From NCBI RefSeq assembly GCF_030123065.1, contig NZ_CP126093.1, forward strand, positions 1,492,001 to 1,556,000: DNA of 64,000 bases. The letters run 5' to 3'. The notes under the pieces were generated by a model. That model was given only the letters and a program-made list of their open reading frames with translations. It was not told the DNA's origin and did no database searches. Shown here one piece after another: positions 42,390 to 44,189 of this stretch (position 1 is the stretch's first letter; the number at the start of each line of letters is the position of its first letter). A program made the translations under genes and the position numbers. Source of the DNA: Neobacillus sp. DY30. GTDB lineage: Bacteria; Bacillota; Bacilli; Bacillales; Cytobacillaceae.

Positions 42390-42614
42390 TTAGGCATTAA
42401 GGAAAATTCCTTGATCAACACCATCGGCATCGTATGTGTTTGTATTACTTAAATTATTATTATGAACAATTAAACTTTCACCCGTATTAAAGGACCCAGC
42501 ACCGGAGAAAGTTTTAGCGGAAGTGAACGGCATGATTTTATAGACATCTCCAATATGAAAAACAGAACTGCTGCCAAGTGATATGACTTGTGCAACGCCT
42601 ACAATCGCTGGCAT
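42390..42614 (-). CDS. gerPA: Spore germination protein GerPA
   Basis: A 74-residue GerPA/GerPF family protein, first of the operon; MPAIVGVAQVISLGSSSVFHIGD and GAGSFNTGE are diagnostic, and it is clearly paralogous to GerPF. The ATG at 42614 follows AAAGGGTG at a normal spacing; a GTG three codons earlier overlaps that site and is rejected. Confidence 0.94.
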   Translation of the reverse strand: MPAIVGVAQVISLGSSSVFHIGDVYKIMPFTSAKTFSGAGSFNTGESLIVHNNNLSNTNTYDADGVDQGIFLNA

Positions 42615-42644
42615 AAACAACACCCTTTACCTTTTTTCTCTTAA

Positions 42645-42831: not shown

Positions 42832-42946
42832 AAAAACACTGATTCTCGATAAAGGCAAAACTGGTGAAAATCAGTGACGCAAAGCTAAAGGGGCTAAGGT
42901 GCATTTGCACTACGCCAGCCAGTTACCGAAAGAACAGGGTGTTTTT
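42832..42946 (+). promoter_or_regulatory. Cyclic-di-GMP-I (GEMM-I) riboswitch
   Basis: All hallmarks are visible: outer stem AAAAACAC (42832-42839) with GTGTTTTT; GGCAAA at 42854-42859; stem ACTG/CAGT closed by a GAAA loop; GACGCAAAGC at 42876-42885; the stem GTGCA-TT-TGCAC; and GCCAGCCAGTTACCG at 42914-42928. These are the conserved bases of the class I aptamer that binds the second messenger c-di-GMP. A terminator at 43005-43036 is the likely output, before the CpaF-like gene. Whether the switch is on or off with ligand cannot be decided by eye. Confidence 0.9.
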
Positions 42947-43004
42947 CGTAGATAACAGCAATGTTTACATAGGACTTTCTATGTGCATTGTTGTACTTCA
43001 TTTG

Positions 43005-43036
43005 TTAACCCCCCTTTCGGTAGAGGCGGGGTTATT
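43005..43036 (+). terminator. Terminator downstream of the c-di-GMP aptamer
   Basis: AACCCC at the left pairs with GGGGTT at the right, extended by CCT/AGG pairs, then TATTTTATT. It lies in the leader between aptamer and gene, so it is probably the expression platform. Confidence 0.75.
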
Positions 43037-43137
43037 TTATTCTGTTTCATCGACCCTTGCCTAACCGTTCATATCTTCTTTATGTTTTGTGAGCAAGATG
43101 GTTTTCAATAAAAACAAAAATGAGGCGGGTGGAATCT

Positions 43138-43746
43138 ATGGGGCTATTAAAACAAATCGAACAAAATAATCAGGGACAAGGTATAGACCACAAATTATAC
43201 AAGTCAGCAAGGATCTCGATTAAAAGGAATCTATGGAAACCTTTAGAGTTGCAGGATTTAATTCGTAATGGGACCATGTCAAAAGAAATGGCTCACTTCC
43301 TCTGTACCTGTGTGAAAGCTAGGTTAAATATTGTAGTGAGCGGAGGAACAGGGGCAGGCAAATCGACACTTGTCAATGCTCTTTCCACTTACATTCCACA
43401 AGAGGAAAGGAATATAATTGGAGATGTTCGTGGTAAAAATGTACGTGAAATACTTTGGAACGAAAATAAAAAAATTCAGGGTTTCCTTGCAACAGGACAT
43501 TCCAGCAGTCCAAGTAATATGATTGATCGTTTGGAAATTATATCCTATCTCGAAGGGGTGAATTTGGCTATTATGGCAATTAGGGAAAAGATTGCTGATA
43601 CCATTGACATCATAGTTCACCTCTCACGTTCAAGTAATGGATTAAGAAAAATAACAAAGATTACAGAGGTTCAGGGAATCAAAGGGGAAAATATTGTGCT
43701 TAGGGATATTTTTACTATTAATACTTTAGAAGGTTCTTATTATTAA
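43138..43746 (+). pseudogene. Shortened CpaF/TadA-type secretion ATPase
   Basis: A 202-residue open frame clearly derived from CpaF-type (Tad pilus/type IV secretion) ATPases, which usually have over 400 residues. It keeps a start (MGLLKQIEQ), then jumps to LELQDLIRNGTMSKEMAHFL, Walker A SGGTGAGKST at about 67-76 and NALSTYIPQEERN. About 55 residues normally following are missing, so the text goes directly to IIGDVRGKNVREILW, then FLATGHSSSPSNMIDRLE and SNGLRKITKITEV. About 200 N-terminal residues are also missing. The frame stays open, so it is either a decaying relic or a reduced protein. No other pilus gene is nearby. Confidence 0.8.
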
Positions 43747-43829: not shown

Positions 43830-44189
43830 ATGATTCATGGTCACGTTACAGCTTGGGTTCTAGCCCTAATTTTATTTATTGTCGCTATATTTTTACTAAA
43901 GGGCGGAAAAGAAAAGGGCGCTAAAATTGTCCGTATGATTTTACGTGTGCTTTATTTACTAATTATCGCAACTGGTGTGGGACTAATCTTCATGGTGTCC
44001 AATATTGATTTGTTGTATATACTTAAAGCAGTAGTAGGAATATGGGTAATTGGTTTATTTGAAGTGATCCTTAGCAAGACTGCACAAAATAGAAAGACAT
44101 CAGTATTATGGATACAGTTTGTTATCGCGTTCTTACTTGTATTATACTTAGGATTCGATAAATTACCGATGTCCATTTTTTATGTATAA
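43830..44189 (+). CDS. yisL: YisL family membrane protein (DUF1516)
   Basis: A 119-residue protein made almost entirely of four membrane segments, starting MIHGHVTAWVLALILF. This is the YisL (UPF0344) family, function unknown. AGGAGGAATATTAA precedes the ATG. In B. subtilis yisL lies between gerP and asnO, as here. Confidence 0.9.
   Translation: MIHGHVTAWVLALILFIVAIFLLKGGKEKGAKIVRMILRVLYLLIIATGVGLIFMVSNIDLLYILKAVVGIWVIGLFEVILSKTAQNRKTSVLWIQFVIAFLLVLYLGFDKLPMSIFYV

Follow-up and report, generated by a model that had tools for sequence, protein, structure and literature searches.

The 64,000-nt stretch of the Neobacillus sp. DY30 genome analyzed here (hereafter referred to as the window) contains, between the gerPA and yisL genes, a c-di-GMP-I riboswitch followed by a gene for a 202-aa remnant of the pilus motor protein CpaF, and this remnant is under purifying selection in 13 species. 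The reading that we favor, and regard as reasonably probable, is that a pilus was lost and that the riboswitch and a catalytically dead CpaF remnant were kept for a new, putative non-motor role. The features of the locus are the following:

42390–42623, minus strand: gerPA (spore germination), the left border; an open reading frame found in the same place in relatives.
42832–42946, plus strand: outer P1 stem, with 42832–42839 pairing with 42939–42946 (from the sequence and a constrained fold).
42844–42930, plus strand: c-di-GMP-I riboswitch aptamer (RF01051), 85.5 bits for a gathering score of 35.
42925–43021, plus strand: predicted antiterminator, ACCGAAAG at 42925–42932 pairing with CTTTCGGT at 43014–43021.
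43006–43042, plus strand: predicted intrinsic terminator, AACCCC at 43007 with GGGGTT at 43028, then T-rich; it competes with the antiterminator.
43138–43746, plus strand: coding sequence of the 202-aa CpaF-derived remnant, found in 13/61 genus genomes and open in 13/13, with an omega of 0.236.
43342–43368, plus strand: Walker A, GGTGAGKST; GK in 13/13, Ser/Thr replaced by Lys in 2/13.
43402–43413, plus strand: junction of the central deletion, from alignment with intact CpaF; the Asp box and the Arg-finger helix are lost.
43492–43512, plus strand: His box, TGHSSSP; His in 13/13, block omega 0.109.
43830–44189, plus strand: yisL (DUF1516), the right border; PF07457, 113.6 bits.

The gerP cluster was named from a Pfam match to GerPC, and the remaining gerP names, gerPA included, are presumed from gene order. 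A sequence-only reading of the locus had proposed a class I aptamer with an outer stem, followed by a terminator, and each of these elements was recovered. Infernal matched the RF01051 model, the only Rfam family above threshold in the window, from end to end (model positions 1–87 of 87, E 1.9e-15), and a chance match is ruled out by the score together with the conservation of the element in relatives. The outer P1 strands are AAAAACAC at 42832 and GTGTTTTT at 42939, and in the inner part of the stem TTCT at 42843 pairs with AGAA at 42931. The terminator-like AACCCC/GGGGTT stem, a motif conserved in relatives that a simple terminator scan did not list, forms in the fold when P1 is forced. At the 3' end of the aptamer, ACCGAAAG is complementary to CTTTCGGT in the terminator loop, with a pairing probability of ~0.95 in the ligand-free fold. 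The free leader RNA prefers the antiterminated structure (-70.6 kcal/mol) over the P1-imposed structure containing the terminator (-65.9 kcal/mol), a gap of only 4.7 kcal/mol. Because the free RNA folds as antiterminated and the P1-imposed RNA as terminated, binding of c-di-GMP would turn the gene off, and the leader is a predicted c-di-GMP OFF switch, its sign being that of the fold prediction. The 8-base antiterminator match is perfect in all 13 short-form and all six full-operon leaders and imperfect in 8/11 other leaders with cpaF; in two of the 19 short-form or full-operon leaders (G018 and G023) the pairing is predicted to be unlikely despite the perfect match. Compensatory changes in this pairing were not seen among the leaders compared, so the OFF assignment stands as a prediction. 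A promoter scan returned no candidate exceeding chance.

All 61 genus genomes carry riboswitches of this class above the cut-off, with matches at E<=0.001 ranging from one (G010) to 18 (G009) per genome. The window genome has four further RF01051 riboswitches above threshold (contig positions 1133177, 5296657, 5674330 and 5744807) and a sub-threshold match at contig position 5707048.

The longer reading frame used in the sequence-only reading (43120–43746) is open; the real start is most likely the ATG at 43138 (MGLLKQ...), because relatives are homologous only from that point on and some of them have a stop just upstream. The best solved relatives of the protein are CpaF chains (8rkd, E 1.4e-25). 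Among family models, PF00437 is matched above its cut-off (40.8 bits), and the NCBIfam TadA model TIGR03819 gives 90.4 bits, short of its curated cut-off of 373.15. Alignment with intact CpaF of relatives adjusts the earlier estimate of about 200 N-terminal and 55 central residues missing: most of the first ~215 residues are absent, with a short N-terminal piece staying, and 49 central residues and also the last ~35 are gone. The pieces kept comprise the N-terminal MGLLxxIQ, Walker A, the Walker B strand, the His box and the C-terminal part, in agreement with the earlier observation that Walker A, the TGH box and the reading frame survive. The segment leading to Walker B had likewise been described as missing; the Asp box and the Arg-finger helix are indeed gone, but the Walker B strand itself stays as IIGDVRG, with Asp in place of Glu, and at the junction the P-loop helix and PQEER run directly into NIIGDVR. 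An AlphaFold model, with the window protein and two N. niacini proteins as its three input sequences, has a mean pLDDT of 64, and its best fold match is the 9e24 CpaF (TM 0.63 by query length). The CpaF fold is recognizable in this model of modest quality; given the pLDDT, we draw no finer structural conclusion.

Two studies of Caulobacter CpaF describe the nucleotide as surrounded by K287/T288 (Walker A), E312 (Asp box) and E357/R359 (Walker B), as well as by H382 (His box), the Arg finger R347 and the N-terminal R217/R223, and report that E357A abolishes function in a phage-infection assay (PMC11300603, PMC12019362). In all 13 short proteins the segment with E312 is absent and E357 is Asp, and the segment with R347 is deleted. 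R359, H382 and the Walker A Lys are kept in 13/13; the following Thr/Ser is present in 11/13 (GKS in the window protein), and Lys takes the place of T288 in 2/13. Four MAFFT settings put the invariant K19 and R25 on R217/R223, and the spacing of six is right, with a score no better than that of shuffles. Motor activity of the 202-aa protein is therefore unlikely, as judged from these alignments, and in the explanation proposed here the loss of the Asp-box Glu, of the Arg finger and of most of the N-terminal domain, which closes the active site, would keep it from working as a rotary pilus motor. Some activity could remain, given the Walker A Lys, R359 and H382 in every copy and K19/R25 as possible counterparts of R217/R223. 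Other lineages with reduced loci lack E312 (G032 and G058) or R359 (G025, G032 and G058), and in G025 H382 is Gln; from these losses and those in the short forms, the active-site core appears to erode in several lineages once the operon is gone. The sequence-only description of a reduced CpaF/TadA ATPase thus stands as to CpaF descent and is unsupported as to ATPase, since E312 and R347, which the Caulobacter enzyme requires, are deleted and E357 is changed. In terms of sequence, the gene is a conserved CpaF descendant that lies outside the CpaF motor family by several defining residues.

The site bordered by gerPA and yisL could be read in 59/61 genomes, leaving out G009, where the site is absent, and G046, where a contig break falls and a long CpaF was seen on a 5.7-kb contig; yisL itself occurs in 61/61 genomes (E<=0.001), the match in G009 being only 43%. 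The window interval holds none of the other tad genes, as noted earlier, and comparison with related genomes reveals six relatives in which the riboswitch at this site precedes a complete Tad operon. Its order is riboswitch-DUF192-flp-tadV-tadE-tadG-cpaB-tadZ-cpaF-tadB-tadC, with a cpaF product of 472–483 aa; the gene names other than cpaF are those that we take to apply from family features seen in the translations. Six loci carry the riboswitch with cpaF as the only whole tad gene (G060, G028, G029, G025, G038 and G047), three the riboswitch with a cpaF damaged in its catalytic segment (G030, G032 and G058), 13/59 the riboswitch with the short form, and two the riboswitch with only an N-terminal cpaF fragment (G033 and G050). 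One locus (G057) has tadC alone, open over ~296 aa, with neither riboswitch nor cpaF, and 28/59 have no tad gene at the site. The riboswitch accompanies cpaF in 30/30 loci with any part of that gene and scores above the gathering threshold in 0/29 without. In G028, scraps matching DUF192, tadZ and tadC flank the intact cpaF on either side, indicating that deletions on both sides spared it. The site shows some further variation. G032 and G030 carry, between gerPA and the riboswitch, a gene that by eye resembles those for truncated haemoglobins, and a similar gene follows cpaF in G025. In G050 the riboswitch is joined almost directly to the cpaF fragment, and inspection by eye found no terminator between them, which suggests translational control there.

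The 13 short forms among the 61 genus genomes comprise that of the window genome, itself one of the 61, and twelve others at 72–83% identity, all of them lying between gerPA and yisL with an RF01051 match in front. A family-wide search gave matches at E<=1e-28 in 16/193 genomes and in 1/25 genera; these 16, all from Neobacillus, comprise the 13 short-form genomes and the three with a damaged solo form, and a scan of named genome contigs returned two strains of Neobacillus niacini and a distant CpaF from Hyphomicrobiales. A codon model fitted to all 13 short genes yields an omega of 0.236 (2dlnL of 217.6 against omega 1), and eight neighboring genes range from 0.03 to 0.17, with the flanking gene d44546 (11 copies) left out; the short gene hence evolves faster than its neighbors, though its evolution is far from neutral. 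Its most constrained blocks are Walker A and the His box, both with an omega near 0.11, and the first 34 residues and residues 101–116 are looser, with an omega near 0.36.

The other riboswitch-solo forms look constrained too. There are 11 further reduced loci besides the 13: six were compared in three pairs, G060 was compared only with G023, and G058 was left out. Several codon pairs are near saturation, and the strong divergence of G028/G029 and G023/G039 makes their omegas only approximate. The omegas are 0.030–0.051 for intact CpaF from full operons (three pairs) and, for the solo forms, 0.045 (G028/G029), 0.191 (G038/G047, with the G047 frame read from the previous stop and lacking a start codon) and 0.149 (G030/G032). 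The mixed pair of solo G060 and full-operon G023 gives 0.170. The value for G025 versus G030 (0.061) lies at the branch-length limit and was not used, and the codon fit for G033/G050 is meaningless.

An explanation that we consider unlikely has the remnant still serving pili, bound as a non-hydrolyzing subunit or brake to the type IVa machinery of PilB, PilC and PilT or, where one exists, to a second Tad system. In its favor, PilB-, PilT- and PilC-like genes (named from domain hits and neighborhood) occur in the window genome, the Walker A and His-box blocks are those most constrained, and a second, longer CpaF lies elsewhere in 5/13 short-form species. Against it, the other eight have no other CpaF match, and PilB, detected in 52/61 genus genomes at E<=1e-80, was not found at that threshold in G008 and G053, both of which keep the remnant; PilB as an obligatory partner is weakened accordingly. 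No second CpaF, TadB or TadC was recognized in the window genome, and no second intact tad operon was found there. Its only two T2SSF-domain proteins adjoin pilB/pilT-like and comGA-like genes, for which reason neither was taken for TadB or TadC. As a separate observation, within contig positions 4512500–4522000 (L208) the competence pilus ATPase gene comGA is interrupted, close to the part that encodes Walker A, by ~6 kb that include a 488-aa recombinase-like ORF (L208:2114-3580; named by eye), as if an integrated element sat in the gene.

Plain decay, in which the riboswitch and the cpaF piece are functionless relics caught midway, is improbable. It would accord with different lineages keeping different pieces (C-terminal, N-terminal, only tadC), with the 28 species devoid of tad genes at the site, by loss if their ancestors had them, and with the active-site residues being lost. 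The omega of the short form and its likelihood difference speak against it, as do its frames, open in 13/13 at a length of 200–202 codons: neutral simulation on the same tree (200 runs) left a mean of 0.15/13 frames open and a maximum of 3. The 13-species form thus already contradicts decay, and a simple pseudogene is ruled out for it by the omega and the simulation; the 202-aa protein is under purifying selection in these species. Decay may still apply to the single-species fragments of G033 and G050. Equally improbable is that the RNA is the point, with the riboswitch controlling yisL by read-through and the short frame serving as a spacer: yisL follows the short gene on the same strand after a gap of only 84 bases, in which the simple scan lists no terminator (a weak argument, since that scan also missed the riboswitch's own terminator), but selection at the amino-acid level, with an omega of 0.11 in the motif blocks, would not be seen in a spacer, and yisL lacks the riboswitch in 29/59 species.

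A tree of the flanking genes intermingles species that have the full operon with species that have a reduced one: the sister of G060 is G023, which has the full operon, and G038 and G047 lie near G043, which has it too. The clade of G025, G030, G032, G033, G058 and the 13 short forms contains no full operon, and the reductions within it may therefore trace to one. Counting that clade as one event, on one locus tree with several weak nodes, the distribution can be read as cpaF having survived at least five separate reductions and tadC one. A rough binomial estimate for cpaF surviving in at least five of six events, only indicative, is 5.5e-5 with genes taken as equal and 0.0016 by length. Pilus loss is the likely history of the window locus, since in six relatives the riboswitch at this site is followed by a complete operon. 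The sequence-only reading had offered two alternatives, loss of a pilus locus that left the switch in place, or continued use of a reduced ATPase under c-di-GMP control. Part of each holds: the pilus was likely lost, but the switch was not merely left, the reduced protein being under purifying selection; and that protein is kept by selection in 13 species, but its designation as an ATPase is unsupported.

The explanation that we prefer, loss of the pilus with retention of the riboswitch and a non-motor CpaF remnant, would run as follows. The ancestor of the window's clade would have had a c-di-GMP-controlled Tad (Flp) operon and then lost it. Without c-di-GMP, the 3' end of the aptamer would pair with the terminator loop and transcription would proceed; with c-di-GMP, P1 would be stabilized, the terminator freed and the gene turned off. 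The remnant, which keeps the P-loop and the His box, may bind nucleotide and would do no rotary pilus motor work. It was most likely exapted as a non-hydrolyzing regulatory or scaffold protein made at low c-di-GMP, selection being the one ground for the term exapted. G033 and G050, with the N-terminal domain only, and G057, with tadC only and no riboswitch, look like ordinary decay.

The locus resembles known c-di-GMP-I (GEMM) riboswitches in having a full-length RF01051 aptamer and an expression platform with a terminator, and differs from them in fronting a Tad operon (in relatives) or a cpaF remnant. Its protein resembles the CpaF/TadA motor by descent, occupying the same site as intact cpaF in relatives, and differs in being without most of the N-terminal domains, the Asp box, the Arg finger, the last ~35 residues and the partners tadB and tadC. 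Clostridioides difficile offers a parallel in a c-di-GMP riboswitch placed before pilus genes in a monoderm. The switch of the C. difficile type IV pili is of class II and turns genes on, whereas the one described here is of class I, associated with a Tad-type pilus, predicted to act as an OFF switch and mostly reduced. In Bacillus thuringiensis, the class I switch Bc1 has mcpE as its target and a dual terminator (PMC11218506). The open-access literature, searched for c-di-GMP riboswitches in combination with Tad/Flp pili, CpaF or pilus assembly and for Flp pili in Neobacillus, yielded no case of the arrangement seen at this locus and in its full-operon relatives.

The findings point to a class I c-di-GMP riboswitch before a whole Tad operon in a Bacillus relative, and to a natural reduction series at one site, leading from a full riboswitch-controlled pilus operon to a single selected, probably dead motor fragment. 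Such a series makes it possible to ask whether the motors of secretion and pilus systems also have work to do outside their machines, and how a riboswitch keeps its link to a single operon gene as the other genes are deleted. A more tentative idea, which we think somewhat less likely to be right than wrong, is that CpaF has a second, pilus-independent and hydrolysis-free job under c-di-GMP control in these bacteria. If true, this would account for the riboswitch and cpaF as the usual survivors, joined by separate deletions, and would explain why the core erodes in parallel even as selection keeps the frame; the 202-aa protein would then be the distilled form of that second job.
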